From: Bryobacterales bacterium
GTDB lineage: Bacteria > Acidobacteriota > Terriglobia > Bryobacterales > Bryobacteraceae
DNA length: 64,000 nucleotides
Assembly: GCA_003167255.1 (NCBI GenBank)
Contig: PMTR01000080.1
Location: 114,591 to 178,590, forward strand
Direction of reading: 5' to 3'
A model generated the notes under the pieces. It saw only the letters and a program-made list of their open reading frames with translations. It had not been told where the DNA came from and ran no database searches. Positions 30,207 through 63,685 of the stretch are shown here, in pieces; the first letter of the stretch is position 1; the number at the start of each line of letters is the position of its first letter. A program made the position numbers and the translations under genes.

Positions 30207-33149
30207 CTACGGGCGTTGTTCGGCGCGGTAGCTTTCGGGCGGGCCGAGGTAGCTGGGCTTGACTCCACCCAGGTTCACCACGAGTTTTTCCAGCACGATG
30301 CCGGGGTCGACCGTCCAGATTCTTAGCGTGTGGTAGCCGGGTGCTGCGATGGTGAAATTGGATTTGACATGGCGGACGCTGTCTTTGACAGTGGTCTCCC
30401 AGTCGCGGTTCGAATTCTGTGCAAGAGTATCGATGACTTGCGGGGGCTGGTCATCGAAAGCCATGGCAAAGCGCAGGCCGCGGCCCGGAGTGAAGTTCTG
30501 GGTGGGGCCGAGGATGGCGTCCACTTCGGCTTTCCCGGCGTCGAACAGGTACATCCGATATTCGAGAGACGGTGCATTCTTGCCGGGGTCGAGGCTGGGG
30601 CCATTGACGGGGAAGACCGACAACCCTGAGAGAGTGCGGCCGTAGTCATCGATCTTTTCCCACCGGGCAGCGGGGCTGGCGTTGTTCTTCGAGTAATGCT
30701 CGGCTTCGATGGAGACGTAGCCGTTGGCTTCGACGAAGCCGCGGAGCGTGGCGGGTGTGACCTCGCGCGGATTGGAGGCGGTGAGATTGACGGTGACCCC
30801 GGCGCCGCCGGCGCCCGAGATCTTGACGGAGCCGTCAGACGATCCGGCGGGCGCCTTGCTCCAATCGACGCTGACCCAAAGGCGCTGCTCCTTTTCGATG
30901 GACCCCTGCGGTAGGCTCACGGAGATCCACGGGACGCTGGGCGCGGCGGAGAATTGAAACGGCGCTGTGCCTTTGGCGAAGATGTCGATGTAACGGCGCT
31001 GCTGATTGAAGGCGTCGAAGGCGGGGAGCGCCGGATCGGACTTGGCGCTTGGCCAGGAATCGGCGGACCCTTCCACGGCGACACCCATGGCGGCGGCCTC
31101 GGGGAGATTGATCTCTCTGACGGCGGGCATGGTGTTGCGGGGAGGTTCCTGCCACATGGTGTAGCCGATGTGAGTCTGATCCATCATGTGGTTCCACTTG
31201 CCGTTCAAGAGCGTGTGGTTGTAGTAGCCGGAGAGATCGGCATCGGCCTGGAAGAGCGCCCTGGTTTGGGCGGCGTAATCGTTGGCGGAGGCGCGTCCCT
31301 GGGAGGCGTAGAGTTGATTCTTGGCGGCGGCGATGTAGAGCTCGGCAACCTGGGCGTAGGACTTGGCAGGATGCAGCACGAGCTCGAAGAAGGCTTCGTG
31401 GGCATTTTCGGGTAACGCGGTTTGCAGGGCTTCGGCTTTGGAAACGAGTGCGTGAAAATCGGCCACGACGCGATCGGCCTCCTGGTAGTCGGTGAGGCTG
31501 AAGGTCGCCGGATCGAGGAGTTCCGGCTTGCGGCGGCCGTTGTACTTGAGGTAGGTGGATACCAGATCGGCGATCTCCGCGGCGTGCGCGGCGCCAAATT
31601 CGCGTTCGGCCCAGAGGCGCGTGAACTCGCCGAGTTTATCCTTGGACCAGCGCTGGGGATCGCGGCCGAGATCGAGGAAGAACTCGATGGGGAATTCCAT
31701 GGGCTTGAGATCGCCCACGTTGACGATCCAGATCTGTTTGGCGTCGTACTCGAGGGCCAGATTCATCTGCTCCCAGATTTTGGGGATGGGATTGGTGTCG
31801 ATCCACTTGTAATTGCGCGGACCGCCGACGTAATCGAAGTGATAATAGATGCCAGCGCCGCCCGCGCGTTTGCGTTCGTCGGGCGTGGGAAGGCGGCGAA
31901 TGTTACCCCAGTTGTCGTCGCACCAGAGGAGCGTGACATCGTCGGGGACGCGCATGCCTTGCTCGTAGTAGCCCTGAACCTCTTTATAGAGCGCCCAGAG
32001 TTGGGGAATTTTCGTGACGTCGGGGTTGACCTGCCCGGAGAGGATTTTGCGCTGATCCGCGACGATCTTCTCAAGCAGCGCGACGTTGGCCTCGAGCGAT
32101 GTGCCGGCCATGGGCCTGTCGCCATCGCCGCGCATGCCGATGGTGGTGATGCTTTCGTAGTCTTTGTTGCGCTTGACGCCTTCTTCCCAGAAGGCTTTGA
32201 GCACATCGGCGTTTTTGGAATAATCCCAGGGGCCTTTGCCGTGGCGCGTCCACTCCTTCTGGGCGCGCAGCATGGGCTCATGGTGCGAGTTGCCCATGAC
32301 GATGCCGTACTCGTCGGCGATCTTCGGATTCAGCGGGTCGTCCTCATTGAAGGCGTTGTTCCACATGGCGGGCCACAGGTAGTTGCCCTTGAGACGCAGG
32401 ATCAACTCGAAGACCTTGGAGTAGAACTCGTGGTTCATGTTCACGACGTCGGAAGGTCTCGCCGGATTGTTCGACACCGGCGCCATGCCGTACTTCTCTC
32501 TCACCCAACCGCTCAAGGCAGGCGCTTCGTCGTTCAAGAAGATGCCGCGATACTTCACGGCTGGCTCGCCTTCGAAATATCTGCCGGCTTTCACGAAGAG
32601 GGCGTCTTTGTGGACGGTGGGCACGTCGGCCCAGTAATACCAAGGGGAGACGCCGATTTGTTCGGAGACGTCATAGATGCCGAAAATGGAGCCGCGTTTG
32701 TCGCTGCCGGCGATGACCAGGGCGCTCGCCAGGCCCGGCAGGGGATTGGCCACCACCTGGATGACGAAGGCCTCCCACTTGCCGGCGACCTGCGCGGTAT
32801 CGATCTTCTTTTCGCGCACCAACCGGTCGATGATGGGGCTGCGGCCGATGGTTCCGACGATGATGGCGGCGCGGCCGAGTCCTTTGGTGTCGCGGAGCAG
32901 CGCGGGAGTGACGGCGGTAACACGGGCGATATCGGCCTGCAAGTCCGCGGCCGCACGCGCGACGCCGGGCCAATCGGCGGGGTCGACATAGATGGCCGCG
33001 GCGGTCTTGGCTTGCACGATGGGGAATGCGCCGGGTGCGGGCTTCTCGATGATATAGCGCGTCTGGCCGATGGCGTGGGCGGTGCGAGGGGACGCGAAGA
33101 GACAGAGGCCGAGCAGCGCGGCAAGAGGAAGGCGGCGTCGCATGATCAT
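30207..33149 (-). CDS. GH115 xylan alpha-glucuronidase
   Basis: 980 aa with a signal peptide (PLAALLGLCLFASPRTAHA). The body matches the GH115 family: GSDKRGSIFGIYDVSEQIGV, SPWYYWADVP, YRGIFLNDEAPALSGW, NMNHEFYSKVFELILRLKGN, YLWPAMWNNAFNEDDPLNP, GNSHHEPMLRAQKEW, IGMRGDGDRPM, and a C-terminal beta-rich region. GH115 enzymes remove (4-O-methyl)glucuronic acid from internal xylose residues of polymeric xylan. Overlaps the GH10 gene by 4 nt (ATGA). Likely periplasmic or secreted. Confidence 0.93.
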   Translation of the reverse strand: MIMRRRLPLAALLGLCLFASPRTAHAIGQTRYIIEKPAPGAFPIVQAKTAAAIYVDPADWPGVARAAADLQADIARVTAVTPALLRDTKGLGRAAIIVGTIGRSPIIDRLVREKKIDTAQVAGKWEAFVIQVVANPLPGLASALVIAGSDKRGSIFGIYDVSEQIGVSPWYYWADVPTVHKDALFVKAGRYFEGEPAVKYRGIFLNDEAPALSGWVREKYGMAPVSNNPARPSDVVNMNHEFYSKVFELILRLKGNYLWPAMWNNAFNEDDPLNPKIADEYGIVMGNSHHEPMLRAQKEWTRHGKGPWDYSKNADVLKAFWEEGVKRNKDYESITTIGMRGDGDRPMAGTSLEANVALLEKIVADQRKILSGQVNPDVTKIPQLWALYKEVQGYYEQGMRVPDDVTLLWCDDNWGNIRRLPTPDERKRAGGAGIYYHFDYVGGPRNYKWIDTNPIPKIWEQMNLALEYDAKQIWIVNVGDLKPMEFPIEFFLDLGRDPQRWSKDKLGEFTRLWAEREFGAAHAAEIADLVSTYLKYNGRRKPELLDPATFSLTDYQEADRVVADFHALVSKAEALQTALPENAHEAFFELVLHPAKSYAQVAELYIAAAKNQLYASQGRASANDYAAQTRALFQADADLSGYYNHTLLNGKWNHMMDQTHIGYTMWQEPPRNTMPAVREINLPEAAAMGVAVEGSADSWPSAKSDPALPAFDAFNQQRRYIDIFAKGTAPFQFSAAPSVPWISVSLPQGSIEKEQRLWVSVDWSKAPAGSSDGSVKISGAGGAGVTVNLTASNPREVTPATLRGFVEANGYVSIEAEHYSKNNASPAARWEKIDDYGRTLSGLSVFPVNGPSLDPGKNAPSLEYRMYLFDAGKAEVDAILGPTQNFTPGRGLRFAMAFDDQPPQVIDTLAQNSNRDWETTVKDSVRHVKSNFTIAAPGYHTLRIWTVDPGIVLEKLVVNLGGVKPSYLGPPESYRAEQRP

Positions 33150-34258
33150 TTTGCTCCAGTCGCCGCGCCGATCACGGAAGTGAAGGCCGGTTTGGTTTTT
33201 CCCTCGCGATCGAAGAGCAACGGATAGTTAGTGCGGCCGCGGATGGGGAAACCGTTCAACCAGGAGTCGCCATCGGTTACGCCCCAGAAAGTGACGCGGG
33301 TGATGGAGGCGCGGTATTTGACGAAGATTTTGAAGAGCTCGGCGTAGCGTTGGGCGAGCGCCTGCTGGACCGCGTCGGGAAGGCCGGCGGTGTACGGGTT
33401 GGAGCCCGAGCCGCCGGCGGAGGTGGCGGAGACGTCGGCCGAATTTCCGGGGGCATTGCGCGGCAGCACGTCGACATCGAGCTCGGTGATGTTCACCTTG
33501 ATGCCGAGCGCGGCGAAGGCCTCGATGGTGTCGGCCTGCTGTCGGGCGGTGGGCCAATCCATCTTGTCGTGGCCTTGCAGTCCGATGGCCGTGATGGGGA
33601 CGCCCTGGGCTTTGAGCTTTTTGATGAGTTCGACGGCGCCCTTGCGCTTGGCCTCGTTTTCGAGCGAGTAGTCGTTGTAATAGAGCTCGGCTTTGGGGTC
33701 GGCTTCATGGGCGAACTGAAAGGCCTTGGCGATGAAGTCGTCGCCGATGATGTTCAGCCATGGCGATTTGCGCAGCGTGCCGTCTTCGTTGAGGGCTTCG
33801 TTGACTACGTCCCAGCCGGCGATGCGGCCCTTGTAGCGGCCCACCACGGTCCGGATGTGATCGTGCATTCGCTCCAACAAGGCATCGCGGGTGAGCGGAG
33901 CGCCCTTGTCGTCCTGGAAGACCCAGCGGGGCACCTGGCTGTGCCAGACCAGGCAGTGACCGATGATGAACATCTTGTTCTTTTCGCCGAAAGCCACGTA
34001 GTGGTCGGCGGGATCGAAGTTGTAGCCATCGAGCCGGGGGTGGATGGATTCCCACTTGAGCGCGTTTTCCGGGCTAATGGTGTTGAACTGCGCGGCGATG
34101 ATGGCATCGCCGCGGGCGTCCTTCTCCTCGAACTGCGACTGATTGATAGCCGCGCCAATGCGGAAGATTCCCTGGAAGGCGTCTTTCAAAGTGGCCGGTT
34201 GCGCGTGGGACACGCCAGCCAGCAGCAGGCCTAAGATTGCGACGGATTTCACGGACAT
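33146..34258 (-). CDS. GH10 endo-1,4-beta-xylanase
   Basis: 370 aa with a signal peptide (SVAILGLLLAGVSHAQ). GH10 signatures: HCLVWHSQVPRW (101-112), acid/base E154 in GWDVVNEALNEDG, nucleophile E259 in VNITELDVDVLP, and WGVTDGDSWLNGFP near the end. Single catalytic domain, no carbohydrate-binding module. Cuts the xylan backbone. Directly upstream of and coupled to the GH115 gene; the 162-nt gap on its 5' side contains the 56-nt palindromic repeat, so it may have its own promoter or be read through from the GH3/GPH genes. Confidence 0.96.
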   Translation of the reverse strand: MSVKSVAILGLLLAGVSHAQPATLKDAFQGIFRIGAAINQSQFEEKDARGDAIIAAQFNTISPENALKWESIHPRLDGYNFDPADHYVAFGEKNKMFIIGHCLVWHSQVPRWVFQDDKGAPLTRDALLERMHDHIRTVVGRYKGRIAGWDVVNEALNEDGTLRKSPWLNIIGDDFIAKAFQFAHEADPKAELYYNDYSLENEAKRKGAVELIKKLKAQGVPITAIGLQGHDKMDWPTARQQADTIEAFAALGIKVNITELDVDVLPRNAPGNSADVSATSAGGSGSNPYTAGLPDAVQQALAQRYAELFKIFVKYRASITRVTFWGVTDGDSWLNGFPIRGRTNYPLLFDREGKTKPAFTSVIGAATGAK

Positions 34259-49406: not shown

Positions 49407-50702
49407 CTACTTGGACGGGTCGCGGGCCAGGTCCCCATTCGGCTTGAATTCGCCGCCATTCAAAATGACGCCGAGCACTTCCTTGGAGCGGGCATTATAC
49501 GCGCCTTGTTTTTCAGGCGTCTTGTTATTGTGGTCAGACTCAATCATGGCGATGACTTCCCTGGCGCCGGGGATCTGGTTGATGGTTGTCCAAATACCGG
49601 CGGGTGGGGCGATGGTGTCGATGAAGCCGAGGGCGGCGAGAACCGGGGCCTTGATCCGCGGGGCGAAATTTACAGTGTCGAAATAGAGGGCCGTTTCCAT
49701 GACTTTAGGGTTGTTGGAGGGCCAGTTCGGGTATCCTGTCTGGCGGCCATGTAAGTCGCCATTGGAATCCGCGCCGGAAGGTTCGTTTACGATCACTGCA
49801 GTTACTCTTGGCTGTAAGGCGGCAGTAACAAGGCTTTGTTGGCCTCCCATGCTGGTACCCATGATGACGATGGTCTTGCCGTCCCAATCGGGTCGGCTCG
49901 TTATGTAATCGATGGCGCGCGAGTCACGGAGATACATGTTGAGAAAGTAAGACGTCTCCCTGTCGGTGTTGCCAATCGCGAAATAGTTCGTGCCGACTCC
50001 AGCAGCCTGGCTGGGCGGGATGTCGTGCGAATCCACGTCAAACGCGAGCCAGCCCTCCGCCGCGCGATCGAGGACAGTGTTCGGCTGGAGGGCATACACG
50101 CCGGCGTACTGAAAGATGACCAGGGCTGGGAACCTGGCTTCCCTGGCCGGCTTGGCGAGGTAACCCTGGACATGCGAGCCGAGGCTGTCCAGCTTGACTG
50201 TGTAGAACTCCAGGCCTGGCTTATTGGCGGGACCAGGCGAAAGGACGGGATTGATCGGAATCTCGCCGAGGGCTTTGAGTTTGGCGTCCCAGAAGCTGTC
50301 AAAATCGGCAGGGCGCGGGACTGAAGGCTGCAACCGCGACGGGGCGATGGCTGCGCCAAGATGGACGGCACCGGCGCCTGCATCCACTTCGACATACAGC
50401 ATGGCCGGTTCATTGAGCGCGGTCTCAATGGTCGCGGCTCCGGACGAGAGGTCGAGAACACCCGTCTTGATGGTGTCCAAATTGTTCTTCTTAATGATGT
50501 AGGTGTAACCGGCGGCGGGCCCAGCCGCACCTTGCGGGAGCGTCATGGTCCACCCGGCTTTTTCGCCAACATCGTAAATACCGCTTGGGTGAAACGGCGT
50601 GAAGCTCAAGGGCTGGGAACCGGCCAGGCGGGCGGTCAGGAACAGCGCGCAGGCAACGACGTACCGGTGGAACGGGATGCGGAGAGCAGGATGTTTCATC
50701 AT
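49407..50702 (-). CDS. CE7-family acetyl-xylan esterase (AXE1-like)
   Basis: 431 aa with a signal peptide (YVVACALFLTARLAGSQ). An N-terminal beta-rich domain (about 30-125) precedes the alpha/beta hydrolase: VPRPADFDSFWDAKL, nucleophile S284 in MGTSMGGQQS, then D362 (GFIDTIAPP) and H391 (ESDHNN) as the rest of the triad. The family removes acetyl groups from xylan and its oligomers. Divergent from the SGNH esterase gene, 55 nt apart, so the two could share regulation. Confidence 0.9.
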   Translation of the reverse strand: MMKHPALRIPFHRYVVACALFLTARLAGSQPLSFTPFHPSGIYDVGEKAGWTMTLPQGAAGPAAGYTYIIKKNNLDTIKTGVLDLSSGAATIETALNEPAMLYVEVDAGAGAVHLGAAIAPSRLQPSVPRPADFDSFWDAKLKALGEIPINPVLSPGPANKPGLEFYTVKLDSLGSHVQGYLAKPAREARFPALVIFQYAGVYALQPNTVLDRAAEGWLAFDVDSHDIPPSQAAGVGTNYFAIGNTDRETSYFLNMYLRDSRAIDYITSRPDWDGKTIVIMGTSMGGQQSLVTAALQPRVTAVIVNEPSGADSNGDLHGRQTGYPNWPSNNPKVMETALYFDTVNFAPRIKAPVLAALGFIDTIAPPAGIWTTINQIPGAREVIAMIESDHNNKTPEKQGAYNARSKEVLGVILNGGEFKPNGDLARDPSK

Positions 50703-52095: not shown

Positions 52096-54696
52096 CTACT
52101 TCTTGTCGGGTTGGATCTCCACATAGTCGAGCGGCGCCAATTCGTTGCCGCCGGGCTTGCCTTCGATGCGGATTTCGTCGCCCGGCCGCAATGCCACACC
52201 CGCAATCACGCGCCGTGTGGAGGCCCCGGCGTCCATGCGGCGCGACGGCAGGCGCAGATCGGCGGACCACTCGTCGATCAATTGTTTTCCCATAAACACG
52301 CGGTACTGAGAAACGCCGGTGGGCAAGTCGAAGTATTCCACGTTCAAGGTGTACCAGCCGGCTTCGCCCGCGTATTTCATGCTGGCGCTGCACGTGGACC
52401 CGGCCGGGCAGGTGACGATCTTGCCGCCGGAGGCATCTTCTTCAGGCGTCGTCGGCGGCGTAAACCCGCCCCGCCCGGGCCCCGCGGCGGCAGGCGGCTG
52501 AGCAGGCGCAGGCGGCGCTTCTCCCGGTGGTGGAGGGCCGAAGGAGCGTACGGTGTACCCCTGCAATTCCATAGCTTCGGCTTCGAAGCGCCCGGGGTAA
52601 TGTCCCACGCGCCCCTTCGCGTCAGCGATCTTCGAGGCCTTCTGGAACCACGTGTTTACGGCGTCGCGCCACACGATTGCCTGGCCGGCCTGGTATTGAA
52701 GCTGCGCCAGCACCTGGTGGTAGCGCTGTTCGTCCACTAGCCCCGCCAGGCTTTTCCACTGCCGAACATAGGCAGCCACGGCATCCGCGCCCTCGTAGTG
52801 GGAATCGTAAATGTACTGCACCACGGTCTTGCCGGAGTGCAGTTTGTAGGTATAGGGAACGTGGTGCAGGAAGAGCAACAGATCGTCTGGGCAGGTGGCC
52901 AGCGATTCATAGACCTTGGCGACCTCCGGCCGATACTGCCCGATAAACCCCGTGCCGGTGTCCACGGTGCGGTCCATGCCGACGCCGGTTTCGTCGGCGC
53001 GATGCCACTGGCCCCAGCCGTTGCGCTCGGAGGCCTCCACGTTGACGCTATAGTGATCGCCCACGATGTCGGTGAGGGTCTGCAAGCCCAGCGGTCCGGT
53101 GTAGTTTTCGTAGGTGCGCCAGGTGCCGAGTTGCATGGCGGAGATGGTATCGACCACTTTGGGGTCGAGCCCGAAAGTGAGTTTGCTCCATTCGTCAATG
53201 ATGCGCTTGGAGCTCAGATCGGGGTTCCAGGCCAGGCGGCCGAAGCCGTACAGGTTGGCCTGGGAAAGCTGGCTGCCGAACCAGTTGTCATCCAGCCCGA
53301 CGTTGGATACGCCCACGAAGCCGCCTGACGGGCGGTCGAACGTCTTGCCGGCGACCAGGGCTTTCACCGGAGTGGGCGCCGTGCCCTTGGCGTGCATGTC
53401 GAAATCCAGCGTTTCTTTCCAATAGGGGACCAGGAAGACGTTGTGTTTGGCTTGGCCGAAGTATTCCTGAGTGATCTGCAGCTCGACAACCTGGTTGGTC
53501 TTCTCCAGCGCGCCGAAAAGCGGCGAGGCCGGTTCGCGCACCTGGAAATCGATGGGGCCGTTCTTGATCTGGATGAAGGCGTTGTCGTCGAACTTGCCGT
53601 CGAGCGAGTGGAAGTTATCCCAGGCGGCGCGCCCGCGGTCGTTCTTCAGGTTGCGCCAGTCCATGTGGTTGTCGTACACGAACCCACGGTAGAACAGCAG
53701 GCCGCCGTGCGGTTTCAGCGCCTGTGCCACCACGTTGGCGGCGTCGGCGTGGGTGCGGCCATAGGCGGAAGGGCCCACCCGGCCTTCCGAATCGGTCTTC
53801 ATGACGAACCCGGCCAGGTCGGGCACCGCGCGATAGATGTCGTCGGCGCGGGCCTTCCACCACTCGGCGACTGTCGGGTCGAGCGGATCGAACGTGCTCA
53901 GACCGCCCATTCTCTGGGGGCTGCCGAAGTCCACGGAAATCGCCACCCGCACGCCCCAGGGGCGGAGCGCGTCGGCGATGCGCGCGATCTGCGGAGCCAG
54001 TTCCGGAGTGAGGATCTTCAGGTCTGCGTTGACATTGTTGATGGAGCAGCCGTTGATGCCGAGCGAGGCCAGGAGCCGGCCGTAGTCGCTGACGCGGCCG
54101 AGATCGTCGCGGACCTTGCCGCCGTCCCAGAAGATGGAGCGCCCGCCGTAGCCGCGCTCGATGGTGCCGGGCAGATTGTCCCAGTGGTTCACCCAACGGA
54201 CGGACGCATAGGGCGTTTCGCGCTGGTCGAGCGAGGCGATAGTCTCGCCCATGGCGATCTTGCGCAGCAGGGCGAAGGCGCCATAGAGCAGACCGCGGTC
54301 ATTGGAGGCGGTGACGATGGTGTAACGAAGCGGGCCGTCGTCGGCGGATTTCAGCCAGAAGGCGTCGGGGGCCAGGCGGACGTCGGGAAGCAGGCGCGGC
54401 GCCGCGCGGCGGATCTCCTCGACGGTTCCGATGAGAATGGCGCTCTCACGTGGGATGTCGGATTCGGCGCGCAGCGTGCGGCCGAGCATGCCCTTCACTC
54501 CGCGGATGAGCTCGGCGCAAGCGCTCGACGCGACGGTGGATTGGTCAAGCACCGAGACGACGGCCGGCACGGCCTGACGAACCTGATCGGGAGCGGCGCC
54601 TTGGAGCGGCGCGTATCGCAGCCAGGCATCGTAGCCGGTTTCGGCGTACAGCGCGGCGGCGGCGACAAGAAGCGAAAGAAGACGAAGTTTCGACAT
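52096..54696 (-). CDS. aguA: GH67 alpha-glucuronidase
   Basis: 866 aa from ATG 54696 (AGGAG about 7 nt upstream). Signal peptide (LRLLSLLVAAAALYAETGYDAW). GH67 signatures throughout: DAFWLKSADDGPLRYTIVTAS, GLLYGAFALLRKI, WVNHWDNLPGTIERGYGGRS, FWDGG, GINGCSINNVNAD, FVMKTDSEGRVGPSAYGRTHADAAN, QIKNGPIDFQVREPASPLFG, LQITQEYFGQ, and YTYKLHSGKTVVQYIYD. A Pro/Gly-rich linker and a beta-rich end (about 755-866) are extra to the core. Cleaves (4-O-methyl)glucuronate from the non-reducing end of xylo-oligosaccharides. Follows the SDR gene by 38 nt. Confidence 0.95.
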   Translation of the reverse strand: MSKLRLLSLLVAAAALYAETGYDAWLRYAPLQGAAPDQVRQAVPAVVSVLDQSTVASSACAELIRGVKGMLGRTLRAESDIPRESAILIGTVEEIRRAAPRLLPDVRLAPDAFWLKSADDGPLRYTIVTASNDRGLLYGAFALLRKIAMGETIASLDQRETPYASVRWVNHWDNLPGTIERGYGGRSIFWDGGKVRDDLGRVSDYGRLLASLGINGCSINNVNADLKILTPELAPQIARIADALRPWGVRVAISVDFGSPQRMGGLSTFDPLDPTVAEWWKARADDIYRAVPDLAGFVMKTDSEGRVGPSAYGRTHADAANVVAQALKPHGGLLFYRGFVYDNHMDWRNLKNDRGRAAWDNFHSLDGKFDDNAFIQIKNGPIDFQVREPASPLFGALEKTNQVVELQITQEYFGQAKHNVFLVPYWKETLDFDMHAKGTAPTPVKALVAGKTFDRPSGGFVGVSNVGLDDNWFGSQLSQANLYGFGRLAWNPDLSSKRIIDEWSKLTFGLDPKVVDTISAMQLGTWRTYENYTGPLGLQTLTDIVGDHYSVNVEASERNGWGQWHRADETGVGMDRTVDTGTGFIGQYRPEVAKVYESLATCPDDLLLFLHHVPYTYKLHSGKTVVQYIYDSHYEGADAVAAYVRQWKSLAGLVDEQRYHQVLAQLQYQAGQAIVWRDAVNTWFQKASKIADAKGRVGHYPGRFEAEAMELQGYTVRSFGPPPPGEAPPAPAQPPAAAGPGRGGFTPPTTPEEDASGGKIVTCPAGSTCSASMKYAGEAGWYTLNVEYFDLPTGVSQYRVFMGKQLIDEWSADLRLPSRRMDAGASTRRVIAGVALRPGDEIRIEGKPGGNELAPLDYVEIQPDKK

Positions 54697-54734
54697 GACA
54701 AATCTCCTGCTCACCGGCAATAAGATTGCCGGCG

Positions 54735-55511
54735 CTACGAATTCACGCCGGAGGCCAGGTAGCCTCCGTCGACGGCGATGCACTGGCCGGTGAGAAAGCT
54801 GACGGCATCGGAAGAGAGCAGAACCGCGAGCCCCACCAACTCTTCGGGTGACCCGAAGCGCTTCATGGGCGTGCGCATGAGGATTTCCTGACCGCGGGCG
54901 GTTCCCATCACCAGGTTTCGATTCAGTTCCGTGGGGAAGACGCCGGGCGCGATGGCGTTGACGACGATACCGTATTCGGCCCACTCACAGGCGAGGCTAC
55001 GGGTGAGCGACAGGATGGCGGTTTTCGCGGCGCAGTAGGCAGCCACCTGGTGAAACGCCAGGAACGAACCGAGCGACGCAATGTTGATGATTCGGCCGTG
55101 GCCGCTCGACGCCAGCAGCCCATGGAACGACTGGCAGGCGCGCAGGACGCTCATCAAGTGGGTATCCATGAGCGCCGAGAAGCGGAACTCGTCCACGCTG
55201 ACGGTGGGCTCTTTGAAGGTGTAGCCGGCGGCATTGATCAGAATATCGACGTGGCCCAGGCGGGCGACGACGGCTTCGCGCAGAGCGTTGATGGACTCGC
55301 GGTTGCGGGCGTCGGCTCTGCAGCGCACTGTCTGGCGGCCGAGGGCTTCGATCTCGTCGGCGGCCGATTCGACTTCTTTCTCACGCCGGCCGGTGGCCAC
55401 GACGTGCGCACCGTGCCGGGCGAGTCCTACAGCCAGGGCCCGGCCGATGCCGGAGGTGCCGCCGATGACGACGGCGACGCGGTCTTCAATGCTGAGGTCA
55501 TTTGCGAACAT
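54735..55511 (-). CDS. Classical SDR oxidoreductase
   Basis: 258 aa. NAD(P)-binding GGTSGIGRALA (about 17-27), NAAG (about 93-96), catalytic S of NIASLGSF, YCAAK (Y and K spaced by 3), and C-terminal FLTGQCIAVDGGYLASG. Resembles gluconate 5-dehydrogenase/KduD-type enzymes and SDR-type fructuronate reductases; not the shorter-motif uronate dehydrogenase type. First gene of an SDR-GH67 operon, so a uronate or ketouronate is the likely substrate. Inference only. Confidence 0.9.
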   Translation of the reverse strand: MFANDLSIEDRVAVVIGGTSGIGRALAVGLARHGAHVVATGRREKEVESAADEIEALGRQTVRCRADARNRESINALREAVVARLGHVDILINAAGYTFKEPTVSVDEFRFSALMDTHLMSVLRACQSFHGLLASSGHGRIINIASLGSFLAFHQVAAYCAAKTAILSLTRSLACEWAEYGIVVNAIAPGVFPTELNRNLVMGTARGQEILMRTPMKRFGSPEELVGLAVLLSSDAVSFLTGQCIAVDGGYLASGVNS

Positions 55512-55552: not shown

Positions 55553-55823
55553 TGAGCCGCCGATAAACACAGATGAACGCAGATGGGCTATAGCGGCTCG
55601 CAAAATACAGTGACGAAAAGTGCCGGCTTGTGGGGCAGGTTGGCAACCTGCGGCGGGTTGGTAACCCGCCTGCCGGCATTTGCAAATGGCCGCCCGGCGC
55701 CGGTTGGCAACCGGCGCGCAGGATACCATCCTGCCCCACAAAACCCACTGCGCGCGACCGTATTTCGCGAGTCTCAATATTTGTTTTCAATCTGCATTTA
55801 TCGGCGTTCATCGGCGGCTAACC
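55553..55823. repeat. 115-nt palindromic repeat copy B nested in a larger inverted repeat
   Basis: Core copy B is 55628-55743, with shared flank to 55776 (ending TTCGCGAGTCTCA as in copy C). Outside it, GCCGCCGATAAACACAGATG (from 55556) and CTGCATTTATCGGCGTTCAT...CGGCGGCT (to about 55821) form looser inverted arms. This fills the 327-nt gap between the SDR and the 109-aa protein genes; no gene seen. Confidence 0.8.
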
Positions 55824-55838
55824 TTTCTCATCAACCTG

Positions 55839-56168
55839 CTAAAGGCTGATGAACAGGGCGCCATCCTCCACGCTCAGCTCGATCGCGGCCGCGGCGGCGG
55901 CTTCATCCAGGGCGGCGCGCAGCATGGCGACGGGGTCCGGGCCTTTCTCGAGCCGGCGCATCAGCCCTTCGCCCTTTTTGGCGCCGGCCGAAAGGACGAT
56001 CTTCAAGCCGCGGCGTTTGCATTTCACAACCGTGCCGTCCTCCAGTTTGGCGTTCATCGGTTTGATGTAGGCATCGACGTAGTGGACGCCGATGCCGGAC
56101 TTGTCGGCGGCGAATTGTGGGAGCTTTTCGGGAGCCGCGGGATTGACGTCGCAGAGTTTGGTTTTCAT
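55839..56168 (-). CDS. Unknown 109-aa protein coupled to homocysteine methyltransferase
   Basis: Not recognised. Starts MKTKLCDVNPAAPEKLPQFA; the middle (GTVVKCKRRGLKIVLSAGAKKGEG) is basic and beta-like; then a helix (PVAMLRAALDEAAAAAAIEL) and a short beta end. Two cysteines only, no signal peptide. Its ATG overlaps the methyltransferase stop (ATGA), so it is the last, translationally coupled gene of the corrinoid operon. An accessory, chaperone or substrate-binding role there is possible; nothing in the sequence proves one. Confidence 0.75.
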   Translation of the reverse strand: MKTKLCDVNPAAPEKLPQFAADKSGIGVHYVDAYIKPMNAKLEDGTVVKCKRRGLKIVLSAGAKKGEGLMRRLEKGPDPVAMLRAALDEAAAAAAIELSVEDGALFISL

Positions 56169-57085
56169 AGGGAATCCGAATATTGATCGATGGCCTGGCG
56201 CACCGCACGGATGTGTTCTGGAGTGCTGCCACAGCAGGCGCCGATGAGATTGGCGCCGCTCTGGAGCAGCGGCACGACGCCCACAACCATCTGTTCCGGT
56301 GTTTCGTCGTAGACCACTTTCATGTTGATGAGCTTGGGCTGGCCGGCGTTGGGTTGGACCATCACGGGCAGGCCGGTGACCTTCTTATAGCGCTCGACCG
56401 CATGGCGGGCGCGCTGCATGTCCATTCCGGTGCCGCAGTTCAGGGCGACCATGTGGGCGCCGTGCTCTTCCATGAAGACGGCGGCGCGCTCGGGATCGAT
56501 GCCCATCATGGTGCGGAAAGTGGATCCGTCCAGCGTGACGTCGTAGGCCATGGAGCCGATGATGGTGGCGGCGCCGGCTTCGCGGGCGGCGTGGATTCCG
56601 AGCAGCAGCTCTTCGAGAGAAGTCTGGGTCTCAATGATGATGGCGTCGGCTCCGGCATCCACCAGGGCAGCGGCCTGCTCGCGGAAAGCGTCGCGCACCT
56701 GGGCTTCGGTGAAATCGCCGTAGGGTTCGAGGAGGCCGCCGAAGGGACCGATATCGCCGATGACGAATCCATGGCGGCCGTTGAAGGCGCGGCGGGCGAT
56801 TTCCACTCCGGCGCGGTTGATTTCCGCGACATGGTCAGCGTGGGAATGGCGGTTCAACATGATGCGCGAACCGCCGAAGGTGTTGGTGAGGATGCAATCC
56901 GAGCCCGCTTCGGCATAGCGGCGCTGAATGGCCAGGACGCGTTCAGGGTGCGTGAGATTCCAGGCCTCGCCGCAATTGCCCTGCTCCAGGCCGGCCAGCA
57001 TTAATTGCGTGCCCATGGCGCCATCGCCCAGCAGCGGACGTTCGCGGACGGCATCGTGCAGTGGTTTCCTGGTGGAGGGTTTCAT
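56165..57085 (-). CDS. Homocysteine S-methyltransferase (BHMT/MetH N-domain type)
   Basis: 306 aa from ATG 57085 (57100 gives 311). LLGDGAMGTQLMLAGLEQG near the N-terminus, TNTFGGSRIML, and the zinc-thiolate cysteines in VALNCGTGMDM and GACCGST (about 217, 284, 285). This is the homocysteine-binding module of cobalamin-dependent methionine synthase as a separate protein. In this operon it should accept the methyl group from the corrinoid protein and make methionine. Separated from the upstream gene by a 56-nt repeat. Confidence 0.92.
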   Translation of the reverse strand: MKPSTRKPLHDAVRERPLLGDGAMGTQLMLAGLEQGNCGEAWNLTHPERVLAIQRRYAEAGSDCILTNTFGGSRIMLNRHSHADHVAEINRAGVEIARRAFNGRHGFVIGDIGPFGGLLEPYGDFTEAQVRDAFREQAAALVDAGADAIIIETQTSLEELLLGIHAAREAGAATIIGSMAYDVTLDGSTFRTMMGIDPERAAVFMEEHGAHMVALNCGTGMDMQRARHAVERYKKVTGLPVMVQPNAGQPKLINMKVVYDETPEQMVVGVVPLLQSGANLIGACCGSTPEHIRAVRQAIDQYSDSL

Positions 57086-57108
57086 TAATACATCTCGCAT
57101 TCCGCAAA

Positions 57109-57181: not shown

Positions 57182-58405
57182 CTAGCGGTTGTCGGCATGG
57201 GTTTCGGGATGGTGCAGCGCGTAGTGAATAGTTTCGAGGACCAGTCCCCACTTGTGTTCCCGGCTGGCGGCTTCGCAATAGCAGCCGGAGGCGGCTTCGG
57301 AGCGATGCCAGCCGAGCACCTCAGCAAGGGGACGGCCCGCGAGGGGCTTCTCGCGGCCGATGGCGGCCATCAGGCCGGAGGCGTCGGTGATGTACTGGCA
57401 CATGGAGGCGTGGCCGGTATCGCCGGGAGCCGGAGTACAGCTCTGGCCGCGGATGGGATAGCCATCCTGGCGGGTCCCCAGATCCACGTCGTAATGGAAC
57501 GCGAGCGGGCGCCCCATGTTGGTGCAGGTGGTGCCGTCATAGCGGAAGCGCGCGTGGAGCGTGCCGTCTTCGCGGGTTTCGAGCACCAGCCGTTCGGCGG
57601 CCCATCGTCTGAGCGCTTTGACATTGACCGAATAGGCGGCGGTAGTCTGCGGCTCGGGCGATTCCTGTTCGAGGCGCGGGTGGGCGCGCAGGTAGGGAGT
57701 GCGGCGGTATAGGCAGTTGACGAGCGAGCACTGCTGGCACGGGACCAGGTCCGCGAGGCGCGCCACGCGGTCCACGTGGCGGGTGATTCCAAAAACGGCC
57801 AACTGCGATTTCTTGGGACGCAGAGCGCCGGAATCGAGCGCCTCCAGCGCGCCGGGGAGCGCGACGGCGCCCTCGCGCCGGATGAGGCGCAGCAGACGGC
57901 CCTGCTCGGCGACGTCCCATTGGGAATAGCCGGGGCTGTGGTGGGGCAGCACGGCCATGGCGTGAGCGTCCGCCCAGGCGCACAAACCGGCGCCGGCCAT
58001 GGCGATCAAATGCTCCACCACGCAAGAGCCAAACATTTCGAGGAAGAAATATTCGTCGGGCTTGTCGTCGCGCCAAAGCCGCTGGGCCTCTTCCTCGGCT
58101 TCGGGGCCCGCGCCGGCCGCGGCCAGGAACACCGTATGAGCCTCGGCCTGCTGCAACGCGGTTCGAAGCCGGCTGCTGTTGAAGGCGACGCCATCGATCT
58201 CGACCTCGCCATCCGCTATGTTGAGGCTGGCGGCGCAACGCGCATAGATCCAGGGGCGCCCGTGGCTCCGGTACCAATCGCGCGCCCAATCGGCCAGCTC
58301 GAGCGAGCGCTCGCCGGGCACGGCATCGCGCGGGTAACCGAGCAGGCGGTGATACTCGGCTGGGGCCACCTCGACGGTGGGAAAGGATTGAACGAATTCG
58401 ATCAT
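57182..58405 (-). CDS. Cys-rich protein with MetH-activation-like segment
   Basis: 407 aa. Middle part FLEMFGSCVVEHLIAMAG and MAVLPHHSPGYSQWDVAEQGRLLRLI resemble the AdoMet-binding activation domain of methionine synthase (SPGY motif). The C-terminal half has a cysteine cluster C223-x2-C226-x4-C231 and further C294, C323, C336, C375, C377, suggesting an iron-sulfur or metal centre. Overlaps the reactivator gene by 4 nt. It probably helps reactivate oxidised corrinoid, possibly using AdoMet and electrons; this assignment is inferred from motif and context. Confidence 0.75.
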   Translation of the reverse strand: MIEFVQSFPTVEVAPAEYHRLLGYPRDAVPGERSLELADWARDWYRSHGRPWIYARCAASLNIADGEVEIDGVAFNSSRLRTALQQAEAHTVFLAAAGAGPEAEEEAQRLWRDDKPDEYFFLEMFGSCVVEHLIAMAGAGLCAWADAHAMAVLPHHSPGYSQWDVAEQGRLLRLIRREGAVALPGALEALDSGALRPKKSQLAVFGITRHVDRVARLADLVPCQQCSLVNCLYRRTPYLRAHPRLEQESPEPQTTAAYSVNVKALRRWAAERLVLETREDGTLHARFRYDGTTCTNMGRPLAFHYDVDLGTRQDGYPIRGQSCTPAPGDTGHASMCQYITDASGLMAAIGREKPLAGRPLAEVLGWHRSEAASGCYCEAASREHKWGLVLETIHYALHHPETHADNR

Positions 58406-60045
58406 CCGGCCACCTGGTGCGCGGGCTCCATGGGTTTGAAGAGGCAGCCCTCGACGAAGAAATCGAAGAAACGCGGGTGAGTCTCCAGGCGGCAGTGCTC
58501 CACCTGACGGACGAGTTGTTCGAGCTCGCGGCGCTTGGATTGCGAGAGCAGCGCGAGCGAAGCGCCTTCAATGGCGGCGTTGCCGGCCTGCACTACGCGG
58601 TCTTCCGGGATGGTGGGGATGAGGCCGATGCGCGCGGCGGCGGGTACGTTCATGTGCCGGCCGAAGCCACCGGCCAGGTAAAAGACCTCGATCTGGTTGA
58701 AGTCGATTCCGTAATTGGCGAAGACCACTTCGAGGCCGGCGGAATTGGCGCCCTTGGCCTGCGCCAGCTCATTGACGTCGCTTTCCAGGAAGAAGACGGA
58801 GCCTTGCGGGTCGAGCGCGATGCGGTGGGGGCCCTCTTCGAAGCGGCCGCGTTCGTTCATCTGGCCGGTGCGCATCAACTCGCTCATCAGCGCCACCAGG
58901 CCGGAACCGCAGATGCCCTGGGGCGGGCCGCCGCCGATGACCTCGAGTTGGAAACTGCCGTCGGCGGCGATGCGAACGTCTTCGATGGCGCCATCGAGCG
59001 CGGGCATGCCGCAGGCGATAGCTCCGCCTTCGAAGGCCGGACCGGCGGGGCAAGAGGCCGCGAGAATGCGCCGGCGATTGCCTACGACCAGCTCGGTGTT
59101 GGTGCCGATGTCCATAATGGCGACGAGGCGCTCTTCGTGCGCCAGGCCGGCGGCCAGCATGCAGGCCGCGGCGTCGGCCCCGACGTGGCCGCTGATCACC
59201 GGTGCGCCCCATACGCGAGCCCTGGGATGGATGGGCAGCAGCGAGCGCCGGCCGGTTTCGGTGAGGCTGGTGGAGGCGCGGCGGCCCTCCGCCATCTGCA
59301 ATTCGGTGATGGACTGGTACGGGCTCTGGCCGATGGAGTGGACGCTCTGGCGGAAAAAGAGGTCGCGCATGGTGGAGTTGCCCACCACCACCATTTCGTA
59401 AATGGATTTGGGATCGACCGGAAACTCTTCGATGGCGTGGCTGAGGTAACCGGCCAGCGTGCGACGCAAGAGCTTGCCAGGATGGAGCGAATCGTAGTGA
59501 ATGCGCGCCATGACGTCGGAGCCGGCGAAGCGTTGCGGGTTCTCAAAAGACGTGCCGGCCACCAGGTCACCGGTCTCGAGGTTGAACAGGCGCAGCACGA
59601 CGGTGGTAGTGCCGAGGTCCATGGCGAGTCCGTGAATCGGGCCGGTGGAGCGATCGACTTCCTGACCATCGATGCAGATGGCGTCGCCGCGCCGGGTGAC
59701 GGCGGGATCGGGGGTGAGGCCGCGCAGAGTTTCGGGCAGGCCGCCGGCGGAGAGATCGATGCGCATTTGGCCGCGGCGCATGGTGTGGCAGTGGATCGCG
59801 CCGGCATCGGCAGAGACCACGGTGCGGCAGGAGAGGCGGAAGCGGCCGTCGAGATGTTTTTCCTCCGGCGTGCGCGGCGAGAGAGACTCCGCGCCTTCGA
59901 CCACTTCCACCACGCATTCCTTGCACTTGCCCTGCTTGTGGCAGGAGGTAGGCACGCGCACGCCGAGCGATTCGGCGCAGTCGAAGATAGTCGAGCCGAA
60001 GGCGGCGCTGATGGATTGCCCGTTGATGGTGAGTGTGGCCGGCAT
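58402..60045 (-). CDS. ASKHA-domain ferredoxin, corrinoid reductive activator (RACE/RamA-like)
   Basis: 547 aa. N-terminal plant-type 2Fe-2S domain: C35-x5-C41-x2-C44-x28-C73 (SCHKQGKCKECVVEV; FRLSCRTVV). A linker leads to the DUF4445 actin-like ATPase part: AMDLGTTTVVLRLFNLETG, MDIGTNTELVVGN, CPAGPAFEGGAIACGMPALD and FYLAGGFGRHMN. Such proteins reduce inactive Co(II) corrinoid to Co(I) with ATP hydrolysis. Overlaps the next gene by 4 nt and follows the PF13769 gene by 12 nt. Confidence 0.93.
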   Translation of the reverse strand: MPATLTINGQSISAAFGSTIFDCAESLGVRVPTSCHKQGKCKECVVEVVEGAESLSPRTPEEKHLDGRFRLSCRTVVSADAGAIHCHTMRRGQMRIDLSAGGLPETLRGLTPDPAVTRRGDAICIDGQEVDRSTGPIHGLAMDLGTTTVVLRLFNLETGDLVAGTSFENPQRFAGSDVMARIHYDSLHPGKLLRRTLAGYLSHAIEEFPVDPKSIYEMVVVGNSTMRDLFFRQSVHSIGQSPYQSITELQMAEGRRASTSLTETGRRSLLPIHPRARVWGAPVISGHVGADAAACMLAAGLAHEERLVAIMDIGTNTELVVGNRRRILAASCPAGPAFEGGAIACGMPALDGAIEDVRIAADGSFQLEVIGGGPPQGICGSGLVALMSELMRTGQMNERGRFEEGPHRIALDPQGSVFFLESDVNELAQAKGANSAGLEVVFANYGIDFNQIEVFYLAGGFGRHMNVPAAARIGLIPTIPEDRVVQAGNAAIEGASLALLSQSKRRELEQLVRQVEHCRLETHPRFFDFFVEGCLFKPMEPAHQVAG

Positions 60046-60057
60046 CGGAGCTTTAGC

Positions 60058-60315
60058 CTACCAGGCGGCCTGGGACTGAAGTTCGGCGGCGACGGCTTCG
60101 GCCACTTCGCTGGCCGTCCCGGGGCGTTCCTGGTCGTCGCTCCACTGCCACTGGGCGAGATAGTCGTCGGACTGCTGGAGCCCGCGCTTGGCGGCCAGTT
60201 GGTCGATGCGCTCCACGAACTTCGGGGGCATCGGAACGGTGACTTCGTCCTGGTCGTCCTCAGCCTTGACTTGAGACGGAACTTCCTGCCAATAGAGAAT
60301 CTTGTAGGTTGCCAT
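60058..60315 (-). CDS. PF13769 'virulence factor' family protein
   Basis: 85 aa: MATYKILYWQEVPSQVKAEDD, then VPMPPKFVERIDQLAAKRGL and DDYLAQWQW. This matches the small family labelled virulence factor, which as far as I know is often found beside corrinoid/homocysteine methyltransferase genes in alphaproteobacteria; no virulence role is implied. The upstream corrinoid gene runs 56 nt into it in another frame. Likely an accessory subunit of the methyl-transfer complex. Confidence 0.8.
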   Translation of the reverse strand: MATYKILYWQEVPSQVKAEDDQDEVTVPMPPKFVERIDQLAAKRGLQQSDDYLAQWQWSDDQERPGTASEVAEAVAAELQSQAAW

Positions 60316-60958
60316 CGTGATGTATGCCGGCCATCAGCCGAAGGAAAAGGTCCACGGCGGCGGAGGCGTTTTGGCCGTAGCCATCGGCGCCGATTTCGTC
60401 GGCGAACATCTGGCTGATGGGGGCTCCGCCGACGGCCATCTTGATTTGGGTGAGGCCGGCGGCCTGGAAACCATCGATCACCGTTTTCATGTAGGTCATG
60501 GTGGTGGTCAGCAGGGCGCTCATCCCAATGATATCGGGTTTGCACTTTTCGGCGGCGGCCATGAATTTGTCGACGCTCTGGTCCACGCCGATATCATGCA
60601 CTTCGAAGCCGGCGCCTTCGGCCATCATGCAGACCAGGTTCTTGCCGATGTCGTGCAGGTCGCCGCGAACGGTGCCCATCAGCAGGGTGCCAACGCGCTG
60701 GACGCCCTCGCGGGCGCTGAGGAGCGGCTTGAGCACTGCCATTCCGGCCTTCATGGCGCGCGCCGCGATCAGCACTTCGGGGACGTAGAGAATGTTGTGC
60801 TTGAAATCTTCCCCTACCACGCTCATGCCGGCGATCAGGCCCTCGTTTAGAATCTGCTGAGCGGATTGGCCTTCGGCCAGCGCGTCCCTGGTCATCTGCT
60901 CGACTTCCTTGGCCTTACCCTCGTACAGGCACTGATTCATCAGTGCGTAATCAACCAT
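60260..60958 (-). CDS. Free-standing corrinoid (B12-binding) methyl-carrier protein
   Basis: 232 aa from ATG 60958. Helical cap (about 5-85: CLYEGKAKEVEQMTRDALAEG, VPEVLIAARAMKAGM) and Rossmann B12-binding domain with the base-off motif D100-L-H102-D-I-G105 (RGDLHDIGKNLV), GMSALLTTTM and VGGAPIS. H102 should be the lower cobalt ligand. About 20 residues extend past the usual end and overlap the next gene by 56 nt. Overlaps the UroD-type gene by 8 nt. Confidence 0.95.
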   Translation of the reverse strand: MVDYALMNQCLYEGKAKEVEQMTRDALAEGQSAQQILNEGLIAGMSVVGEDFKHNILYVPEVLIAARAMKAGMAVLKPLLSAREGVQRVGTLLMGTVRGDLHDIGKNLVCMMAEGAGFEVHDIGVDQSVDKFMAAAEKCKPDIIGMSALLTTTMTYMKTVIDGFQAAGLTQIKMAVGGAPISQMFADEIGADGYGQNASAAVDLFLRLMAGIHHDGNLQDSLLAGSSVSSQG

Positions 60959-62024
60959 GGCGGACCCCTTGACCGGCGAGACGGCCCGCGTTGAATTCTT
61001 CGAGCGCGCGCTGCATGGCGACGATGTTCTGGCGCGGCATTCCGGGGCTGGTGCCGCCGCCCACGGAGAGAATGATGCCTTCGCCGCCGGAGCCTTCGAG
61101 CACATCGAGGGTGGCTGCGCGGACCTCTTCGGGTGTGCCGCGGACGCCGATTTCGAGCGGGTTCACGTTACCCATAAGACACATGCGATGGCCCACGCGC
61201 TGCTTCACTTCGCGAATGTCCTTCTGCTTGCCCCAGTTCAGCACGTTGAATCCGGCGTCGGGAATGTGGTCCAGGCAGGCGTCCACTTCGGCGTCGTTAT
61301 GGTAGATCTTGATCCAGTCCGCGGGAAAGGCGTCGCAGATGCGCTTGAGATAGGGGTGCGCGAACTCCATGTAGTGCTCTTCGTTGATGAAGCCCACGAT
61401 GTCGTCGAGGATAAAGATGCCCTCGACGGTCGAGCCCATGGCTTTGTGCTGGGCCTTCAACCAATCGATGACGACGCGCGTGCAGAGGTCGATCAGGCGG
61501 TGAGCGCCCGCGGGATTTTCGACCAGGTCGATCATGAAATGGGTGGTGCCGCGCACGAAGCCGGCGGTGCAGAGAGGCCCGCGCGAAGTCACCATGGGCA
61601 GGATGTAGCCATGGTCGAGGATACGTTGGCGCTGCATCTTAATGCGATGCAGGGTGAGGGCGGCGAAGGCGTCGTACTCCACCTCGTACTCCGGGAACTG
61701 ATCGATGTCTTCGAGACGATAGAGGGTGTGGTATTCGCTGGGAGTATTATCCTGCCAGAACTTGATTTTCGCGCCCAGGACCGATGGCTCGGCGGCCATT
61801 CCGTACTCCATCCACCAGGAGGGGACGAAGATGATGTCGGGGAACTCGCGCATTATGTCGAGATTGGCCTGGAACCAGACTTCGGGGTCGAGGTAATAGT
61901 CCAGGTGCTGTATGCCCAGATAGCCGGGCATCCACGGGCTATCGATAATGAGGGCCATCGGAATCCGCTCGAGTTTCTCGAGACGCGCGGCTCGTTTAAA
62001 AGTTTCCCACTGGTGCGGCAGCAT
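60951..62024 (-). CDS. UroD-superfamily methyltransferase (corrinoid methyltransferase partner)
   Basis: 357 aa from ATG 62024, 8 nt after the enolase-superfamily stop. Uroporphyrinogen-decarboxylase fold as in MtaA/MtbA and related methyltransferases: FVPSWWMEYG, ILPMVTSRGPLCTAGFVRG, ILDDIVGFINEEHYMEFAHPYLKRI, IKIYHNDAEVDACLDHI, GFNVLNWGKQ, MGNVNPL. Where MtaA-type enzymes have the zinc motif HxC, this has H242-N-D244, so the metal site differs. It should move a methyl group from an unknown donor to the corrinoid protein encoded next to it. Confidence 0.9.
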   Translation of the reverse strand: MLPHQWETFKRAARLEKLERIPMALIIDSPWMPGYLGIQHLDYYLDPEVWFQANLDIMREFPDIIFVPSWWMEYGMAAEPSVLGAKIKFWQDNTPSEYHTLYRLEDIDQFPEYEVEYDAFAALTLHRIKMQRQRILDHGYILPMVTSRGPLCTAGFVRGTTHFMIDLVENPAGAHRLIDLCTRVVIDWLKAQHKAMGSTVEGIFILDDIVGFINEEHYMEFAHPYLKRICDAFPADWIKIYHNDAEVDACLDHIPDAGFNVLNWGKQKDIREVKQRVGHRMCLMGNVNPLEIGVRGTPEEVRAATLDVLEGSGGEGIILSVGGGTSPGMPRQNIVAMQRALEEFNAGRLAGQGVRHG

Positions 62025-62032
62025 GACTTTTC

Positions 62033-63277
62033 TCAATAAGGAATCGCAACGGGGCGTCCATCGTTGGGGTCGGCCCACCGGTCATTCGGAATGATGGCAG
62101 TCCAGCCAGGCCGGCCGGGATCCTGGTCATAGGGATACCCGCCGAGACGCTGGTAGAGCTCGTGATACTCTCTGAGTTTTTCGCGATTGAGCCGGACGCC
62201 CAACCCAGGGCCTTCGGGGACGCGAATGCAACCGCTTTCATAACGAAGCAAGCCACCTTCAATGATATCGTCCCTGAGGTGGTGATAGTGGGCGTCGGCG
62301 GCGAAAGAAAGATTGGGAATCACGGCGCCCAGGTGCAGCATGGTGGCAAGTTGAATGCCGAGCTCGCCGGAGGAATGCACGGCCACGCCGATCTGGAAAG
62401 TTTCGCAGACCGCGGCGGCTTTCACACAGGCGCGGATGCCGCCCCAAAACGTGGTGTCGAGCAGGATGACGTCGACCGCGGGATCGAGCGCATTGGCGGC
62501 CAACTGCTCGAAGTTGACCACCACGGTGTTGGTGGCGAGCGGCACGCGCACCATCTGGCGGGTGCGGCGCATGCCGTTCAAGCCAAAGACCGGATCTTCC
62601 AGATAGTCGTTGCGCAGGCCCTCGATGGCCTGGCCGAAGCGGATGGCCTGCTCGGTGGACCATACGCCGTTGGGGTCGAAGCGCACGGAATCGTTGGGGA
62701 ATGTTTCGGCCAATGCGCGGTAGGCCTCAAGTTCGTAATCCGGGGGGAAAACGCCGGCCTTCATTTTGTGGGTGGTGAAGCCGAAGCGGCGTTTCAGGCA
62801 ATCGGCGTTGGCCAGCACCTGGTCGATAGTGCGGACCTCTCCATCGCCCGTGCGCGGGTCGGGGTAGCGGAAAAAGCAGTAGGCGGCGAAGGGAACGCGG
62901 TCGCGCAGGCGGCCGCCGAGAATTTCCGAAACCGGCACACCCCAAGCTTGCCCGAGAATGTCCAGGCAGGCGAATTCCAGCGCGGCCAGCACTTGCGTGC
63001 GGTTGTTGTAGAGCGAAGCGGTGGGATTGGCGATGAGGAAGCGCATTTCTTCGAGGCGCGCGGGGTCGTGGCCCACCAGATACTGCTTCATGGCGCGGAA
63101 AACTGCCTCGGCCGATTCACCGCCGCCGCCCATTTCGCCGAGCCCCACCAGACCGTTGTCAGTCTCGATTTCGACGACCGTTCGGACGAAGCGGCCCCAG
63201 TGACAACCGTTGGCATGGCGCAGAGGCGCCTCCAGCGGCACGGTGACCGTGGTGGCTCGGATGTCCACGATCTGCAT
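62033..63277 (-). CDS. Enolase-superfamily acid-sugar dehydratase, glucarate-dehydratase-like
   Basis: 414 aa. Capping domain with [12 protein letters not shown], then the barrel: K171-M-K173 (THKMKAG), metal ligands D201 (RFDPNGVW), E227 (YLEDPVFG) and N250 ([14 protein letters not shown]), and the D274/H301 pair ([13 protein letters not shown]). The KxK, Asn ligand and His-Asp pair match the glucarate dehydratase subgroup rather than mandelate racemase. Substrate probably a C6 sugar acid. First gene of the corrinoid operon, which is unusual for this enzyme class. Confidence 0.9.
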
Positions 63278-63436
63278 TTGGTTTTATGATACAACAATTT
63301 CCTGGTTAAGCAGGTCCCGAGGGCGCAATTTCGGCAGGCGGGCTTGACCGAAGGCCTACGCAGGCAACCTTGCGGGCGTCTGGCCGGCACCGGGAGACGC
63401 TCAGATAATTTGAGCATCAAACTAATCAGTGCAGGC

Positions 63437-63584
63437 TTGTGGGGCAGGTTGGCAACCTGCGGCGGGTTGGTAACCCGCCTGCCGACGTTTGCAAATGGCC
63501 GCTCGGCGCCGGTTCCAACCGGCGCGCAGGATTCCATCCTGCCCCACAAAACCCGCCGAGTGTAACCGTACTTCGCGAGTCTCA
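63437..63584. repeat. 115-nt palindromic repeat, copy C
   Basis: Core 63437-63551 matches copy B except for a few bases; the shared right flank ends TTCGCGAGTCTCA at 63584. It takes up the middle of the 408-nt gap between the enolase-superfamily gene and the peroxiredoxin gene; the rest of the gap should hold the corrinoid operon promoter, but no clear -35/-10 pair was resolved. Confidence 0.85.
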
Positions 63585-63685
63585 CTAATCTTCAAAGGGT
63601 TTTCCGCAATCGGGGGTGTTGTCTGGAATGATCCGGCGCGCGGGGCCGCAACGATCGCGGCCCTGCGCCTGGACGAGCGGAGCGC

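Follow-up and report, generated by a model that had tools for sequence, protein, structure and literature searches.

The locus analysed here raises the question of why a separate, cysteine-rich protein resembling the activation domain of methionine synthase (MetH) is encoded directly beside a RACo-type corrinoid activator. Judged from its predicted genes, the window (the whole analysed stretch of 64,000 nucleotides) is a glucuronoxylan locus of a soil bacterium, in which the listed features are accompanied by two GH3 proteins, an MFS sugar transporter, a ROK protein, an outer-membrane barrel and a GDSL esterase. We propose that the protein, called here the activator, is RACo’s reactivation partner for the corrinoid protein of the same operon and restarts a B12 demethylase acting on 4-O-methyl-glucuronate, a composite reading for which we see the chances as evenly balanced. 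In simpler terms, the activator probably keeps B12 working while the methyl group is removed from xylan-derived methyl-glucuronic acid.

Table 1. Features of the window; from the enolase-superfamily dehydratase down to GH67 the rows follow the gene order on the minus strand.
Feature	Coordinates	Strand	Remark
Enolase-superfamily sugar-acid dehydratase	62033..63277	(-)	best NCBIfam glucarate dehydratase, below its cut-off
UroD-superfamily methyltransferase, putative methyl-donor:corrinoid	60951..62024	(-)	85% mean column identity across relatives
Corrinoid protein, MtgC/MtbC type	60260..60958	(-)	B12-binding cap and B12-binding domain
Small protein, Pfam Virulence_fact (PF13769)	60058..60315	(-)	
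RACo-type corrinoid activator	58402..60045	(-)	2Fe-2S domain, RACo middle region, ASKHA C-terminal domain
MetH-activation-like two-domain activator (the finding)	57182..58405	(-)	407 aa, ATG start
Homocysteine S-methyltransferase, likely methyl acceptor enzyme	56165..57100	(-)	
Conserved 109-aa protein	55839..56168	(-)	in nearly all related clusters
SDR oxidoreductase, gluconate 5-dehydrogenase/KduD-like	54735..55511	(-)	
GH67 alpha-glucuronidase	52096..54984	(-)	PF07488 E 5.2e-140
Acetyl-xylan-esterase-like protein (AXE1)	49407..50702	(-)	weak glucuronoyl-esterase match
GH10 endo-xylanase	33146..34258	(-)	
GH115 xylan alpha-glucuronidase	30207..33149	(-)	

The sequence-only reading had described a separate protein overlapping the ASKHA ferredoxin gene by 4 nt, and this description is exact: the start of the activator and the stop of RACo share four nucleotides as ATGA. 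The SPGY motif (residues 157-160) and the eight cysteines which it listed are likewise correctly placed in the translated ORF, whose cysteines are residues 57, 128, 142, 223, 226, 231, 294, 323, 336, 375, and 377. The protein consists of an activation fold (residues 1-208), a linker with C223-C226-C231, and an extra cysteine domain (residues 262-400). A scan of genome contigs gave 45 related loci, mostly from Acidobacteriota and Verrucomicrobiota MAGs and one labelled Gammaproteobacteria; 38 full-length activators, including the window protein, were aligned, and they are 47-90% identical to the latter.

Structure prediction bore out the proposed likeness to the MetH activation domain. In the AlphaFold model (mean pLDDT 84.9), residues 1-208 match 1J6R (Foldseek E 1.2e-10; Z 21.2, rmsd 2.1 Å, 194 aligned residues), with MetH activation domains from Thermus, E. 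coli, and humans next in rank (Z 15-17; 15.7-16.2 for E. coli MetH against the N-terminal domain). The family profile searched against the PDB also placed 1J6R (TM0269 of Thermotoga) at the top (E 0.009), and none of the 38 activators had a Pfam match over the cut-off, PF02965 (Met_synt_B12) included. The activator is thus a remote relative of the MetH activation domain and not a member of PF02965, and the model makes us almost certain that its N-terminal domain adopts the MetH activation fold.

Both synteny and a natural fusion speak for the coupling to the ASKHA protein. RACo lies directly upstream of the activator on the same strand in 40 of the 41 genome-contig loci with upstream sequence, the exception (L054) being a partial activator copy. 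At that locus (L054:5771-6635, also L130), a dehydratase fragment directly precedes the partial activator at the contig end with no RACo between them, which looks like a decaying or rearranged copy. In L125:7934-10276, RACo and a short activation-fold protein are fused into one ORF of 780 residues, with the RACo domains extending to about residue 529 and the activator thereafter. In L125 and L126 the corrinoid protein is encoded together with an MttB-family methyltransferase (PF06253 E 1.5e-81 in L126; assigned by eye from the upstream ORF in L125), and therefore the RACo-activator pairing is not restricted to the UroD systems.

The window genome points in the same direction. The operon RACo, which aligns to 3ZYY and retains all three RACo domains, is its only RACo_C_ter match; its MetH is complete, activation domain included; and, MetH apart, a strong corrinoid-cap match was obtained only for the operon’s corrinoid protein. 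This corrinoid protein is therefore the probable client of the activator. The full MetH is also the reason why we reject replacement of methionine synthase as the sole role of the operon. To our knowledge, RACo acts without an activation-fold partner in the known systems, which counts against a partner role; nevertheless, we hold with good confidence that the activator is a partner of RACo in corrinoid reactivation.

What the cysteines contribute is less clear. C142, C223, C226, C231, C294, C336, C375, and C377 are invariant in all 38 aligned activators and C323 is kept in 37, while C57 and C128 vary; of the eight cysteines listed in the earlier reading, seven are therefore invariant and C323 is lost once. 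The relative on the plasmid of Gemmatirosa kalamazoonensis (Gemmatimonadota) is 57% identical and has all nine conserved cysteines. Nine near-invariant cysteines across three phyla form a pattern that is not due to chance. Neither of the outcomes which the earlier reading named as refuting it, a missing fold match or unconserved cysteines, was seen. Mean column identity is 54% for the activator, 70% for RACo and 85% for UroD, the three families aligned for comparison.

These cysteines do not form a single set. The family profile, run against 297 Acidobacteriota genomes, found distant activator relatives without the C-terminal domain in 28 genomes, and most of the readable ones have the activation motif together with a CxxC-type motif (such as CxxCx4C) near the C-terminus. 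Consequently, C223, C226, and C231 represent a feature common to separate activators, and only the last five cysteines (C294, C323, C336, C375, and C377), located in the extra C-terminal domain, are new. The linker trio falls into a region of low model confidence (residues ~219-254), and residues 256-407 predicted alone give a confident model (mean pLDDT 90.7, pTM 0.88) of a four-stranded sheet with helices. Foldseek with this domain returned no match at E 0.001 or better (the best Z of 6.4 was not convincing), and no sequence relatives of it were found in the PDB. Two candidate folds were considered and are not claimed: IscU/NifU_N, which is similar in topology and in a GK(T)xxEAL-like stretch (Z 5.4 with apo-IscU, hhalign probability 0.4%), and the FMN-binding fold of RnfG/NqrC, whose Z of 6.4 is within the stated noise of the tool.

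Among the 297 Acidobacteriota genomes, the C-terminal domain occurs only in the window genome and in G067, in the latter within the same protein, and among plasmids only in that of Gemmatirosa. It is absent without a remnant in L050 (the same gene in L129), and likewise in L061 and L062 (which are the genes of the MttB-type clusters L126 and L125, respectively), which means that it is not essential to the pairing with RACo.

The nine near-invariant cysteines are ligands of the kind expected of an Fe-S protein and are also compatible with zinc; the five-cysteine domain may bind either an Fe-S cluster or zinc, and we place Fe-S in the C-terminal half only tentatively, at somewhat less than an even chance. 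The best surviving alternative to our reading is that the cysteines form structural zinc sites or redox-sensing thiols and that the activator serves solely as a scaffold on which the corrinoid protein and RACo dock. The shortness of CxxCx4C, its position in a low-confidence linker, and the existence of relatives without the C-terminal domain agree with this explanation, while the concentration of nine near-invariant cysteines beside a low-potential electron donor suggests Fe-S at least as much as zinc; we judge the scaffold to be rather unlikely.

The other function ascribed to the activator, AdoMet-dependent reactivation, depends on the residues around SPGY. In MetH, the activation domain docks over the corrin ring during reactivation and AdoMet is bound through the RxxxGY motif. 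The activator has HxSPGY in its place, retaining the Gly and Tyr; the Arg position is His155 in 37 of the 38 activators and Asn in one, while Arg is present both in 1J6R and in the window genome’s own MetH (RYSFGY). Tyr160 and Glu131, the latter aligned with the MetH helix Glu, are invariant. Thus, the Glu and Tyr positions speak for the earlier proposal and the replacement of the Arg makes AdoMet binding uncertain, so that AdoMet use, as far as the sequences allow it to be judged, is doubtful.

A slightly less probable alternative than the scaffold, and the one put forward in the earlier reading, builds on this chemistry: the activator would bind AdoMet and methylate Co(I) by MetH-like reductive methylation, its Fe-S cysteines supplying the electron and RACo providing a parallel route. 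The activation fold and the invariant Glu131 and Tyr160 at MetH AdoMet-site positions agree with it, but the almost universal His at the Arg position, and the fact that low-potential electrons are already delivered by RACo, make it unlikely in our opinion.

Turning to the substrate, the operon unites a UroD methyltransferase, a corrinoid protein, an activator and an acceptor enzyme, i.e. the gene set of a corrinoid O-demethylase operon. For the corrinoid protein, translation was taken to begin at an internal ATG, which is codon 50 of the longest ORF. UroD shows the highest conservation of the three aligned families, which suggests, at the level of sequence, a fixed substrate. In MtaA the zinc ligands are provided by HxC and a second Cys; at these positions the UroD protein reads HND and GGGTSPG, and MtaA-type thiol methylation by it is unlikely. 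Cysteines 222, 289 and 290 of the homocysteine S-methyltransferase are placed as in the zinc site of its family.

The methyl acceptor may differ by lineage. Pterin-binding and MTHFR-type proteins adjoin the cluster in several related loci, suggesting methyl transfer to folate there. Several Verrucomicrobiota clusters (within L030-L046) have no homocysteine methyltransferase nearby, and some of them have the pterin-binding and MTHFR-type proteins instead. Gene order varies as well: in Opitutae it is RACo, activator, 109-residue protein, UroD, corrinoid protein, and PF13769. The 109-residue protein (P0007) is well conserved (74% mean column identity) and also found in the short-form cluster L125; its relatives include none in Pfam or the PDB. 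In Gemmatirosa kalamazoonensis (L089:5145-6134), a single ORF encodes the corrinoid protein together with PF13769, and this fusion suggests that PF13769, despite its Pfam name “Virulence factor”, is a partner of the corrinoid protein and not a virulence protein. Two direct copies of a 160-bp intergenic sequence (positions 55619-55779 and 63428-63587 of the window, 88-95% identical) flank the block from the dehydratase to the 109-residue protein; they may represent an interspersed element or have been left behind when a cassette moved.

The methyl donor is indicated by the association of the cluster with GH67. This gene was found in six of the seven genomes with an activator match versus 7/54 without one (Fisher p 0.0002); five of the six have it no more than ~6 kb from the gene for the activator. 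Altogether, 34 of the 40 genomes or records behind the activator loci have GH67; when two short-form MttB genomes without it (G086 and G312) are set aside, this becomes 34/38 with the full cluster family, leaving four without GH67. In the phylum-wide Acidobacteriota sample, GH67 occurs in 30 of the 297 genomes, two of which carry the cluster. The contrast between 34/38 genomes with the cluster and 28/295 without it is strong (Fisher p ~5e-25), with the reservations that the genomes are related and not phylogenetically independent, and that the former set includes Verrucomicrobiota and one plasmid while the latter is Acidobacteriota only. Dehydratase, SDR, GH67, and the UroD cluster occur together in three different arrangements in G036, G057, and G002 (L127-L129). 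Not every genome has GH67 next to the cluster; in Gemmatirosa the two are ~290 kb apart on the plasmid.

4-O-methyl-glucuronate is a major side group of hardwood xylan, and GH67 and GH115 split it off from the polymer or from fragments of it. Because both enzymes would free this compound, it is the most likely methyl donor, an assignment towards which the genomic association makes us lean. Some caution is needed: an aliphatic ether such as that of the sugar gives up its methyl group less readily than do the aryl ethers, which are the known ether substrates of UroD methyltransferases. The substrates described for UroD-family methyltransferases are aromatic ethers and haloalkanes (PMC13222342). 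We found no description of a bacterial demethylase for 4-O-methyl-glucuronate, corrinoid or other, in the mostly freely accessible literature searched.

A further alternative is demethylation of methoxylated aromatics from lignin-carbohydrate complexes, in the manner of the anaerobic UroD O-demethylases MtvB, OdmB, and VdmB. The UroD family and the gene set do resemble known O-demethylase operons (PMC13222342), but none of the scanned window proteins was recognised as belonging to aromatic catabolism, and the linked genes encode an alpha-glucuronidase, a sugar-acid dehydratase, and an SDR; we consider aromatic substrates distinctly unlikely. It is more improbable still that the donor is methanol or another small product of a pathway in which a 4-O-methyl sugar acid first passes through the dehydratase, the sugar ether itself not being the target of UroD: an enolase-superfamily dehydratase heading the operon could conceivably eliminate the 4-methoxy group, but the operon has no recognisable methanol methyltransferase of the MtaB type.

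Returning to the reading that we prefer, we suppose that the UroD protein would move the methyl group of 4-O-methyl-glucuronate, or of its SDR-oxidised form, to Co(I) of the corrinoid protein, from which the homocysteine methyltransferase would take it to form methionine; in the relatives with pterin-binding and MTHFR-type neighbours, the acceptor would be tetrahydrofolate. Upon oxidation of Co(I), RACo and the activator would restore it: the activator would keep the corrinoid protein, once oxidised to Co(II), ready for activation and RACo, with ATP, would push an electron into it. CxxCx4C and the five-cysteine domain may carry a metal centre, most likely Fe-S, which would relay this electron, with or without trapping of Co(I) by AdoMet. 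Extended to soil bacteria, including oxygen-living ones, the full scheme (UroD/B12 demethylation of 4-O-methyl-glucuronate, methyl transfer to homocysteine or folate, and reactivation by RACo with an activator bearing a cysteine-metal domain) is a speculative proposal, to which we give clearly less than an even chance.

If true, it would offer a testable B12 route for 4-O-methyl-glucuronate, extend the UroD methyltransferases to aliphatic sugar ethers, and link xylan breakdown with methionine or one-carbon supply. Two known principles of B12 reactivation, RACo and the MetH activation domain, would be joined, together with an unexplained cysteine domain, and this joining is possibly an adaptation to oxygen. 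The activator adds a variant to the separate MetH-activation proteins and suggests that xylan utilisation involves a B12 route not described before.

Among known proteins, TM0269 of Thermotoga maritima (1J6R, a 214-residue chain) shares with the activator the fold over residues 1-208, the SPGY loop, and the location in a separate gene; it differs in having Arg before SPGY and no C-terminal five-Cys domain, and it serves MetH, whereas the window activator is linked to a RACo demethylase operon. The split methionine synthase, which needs a RACo-type DUF4445 protein together with DUF1638 (Price et al., PMC5764234), is known from Phaeobacter, and this system and MtgBCD of Ruegeria (PMC12478193) resemble the window cluster in their separate homocysteine methyltransferase, corrinoid protein, and RACo, with which the methyl carrier is possibly also common. 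These systems use DUF1638 where the window cluster has the activation-fold protein; unlike them, the window genome has a complete MetH and no DUF1638 match. The type 1 mlp gene clusters (PMC10418091) also combine UroD-family methyltransferases with a corrinoid protein and RACo, but they have several UroD proteins, belong to obligate anaerobes, and are tied to Se/S metabolism, while the window operon has one UroD, a homocysteine methyltransferase, and xylan genes. Finally, the RACo/RamA-dependent demethylases (UroD O-demethylases, CdmBCA, and MttB) share with the operon a methyltransferase, a corrinoid protein, and an ATP-dependent activator, often encoded together; to this set the window operon adds an activation-fold protein and a homocysteine methyltransferase, within a glucuronoxylan locus.
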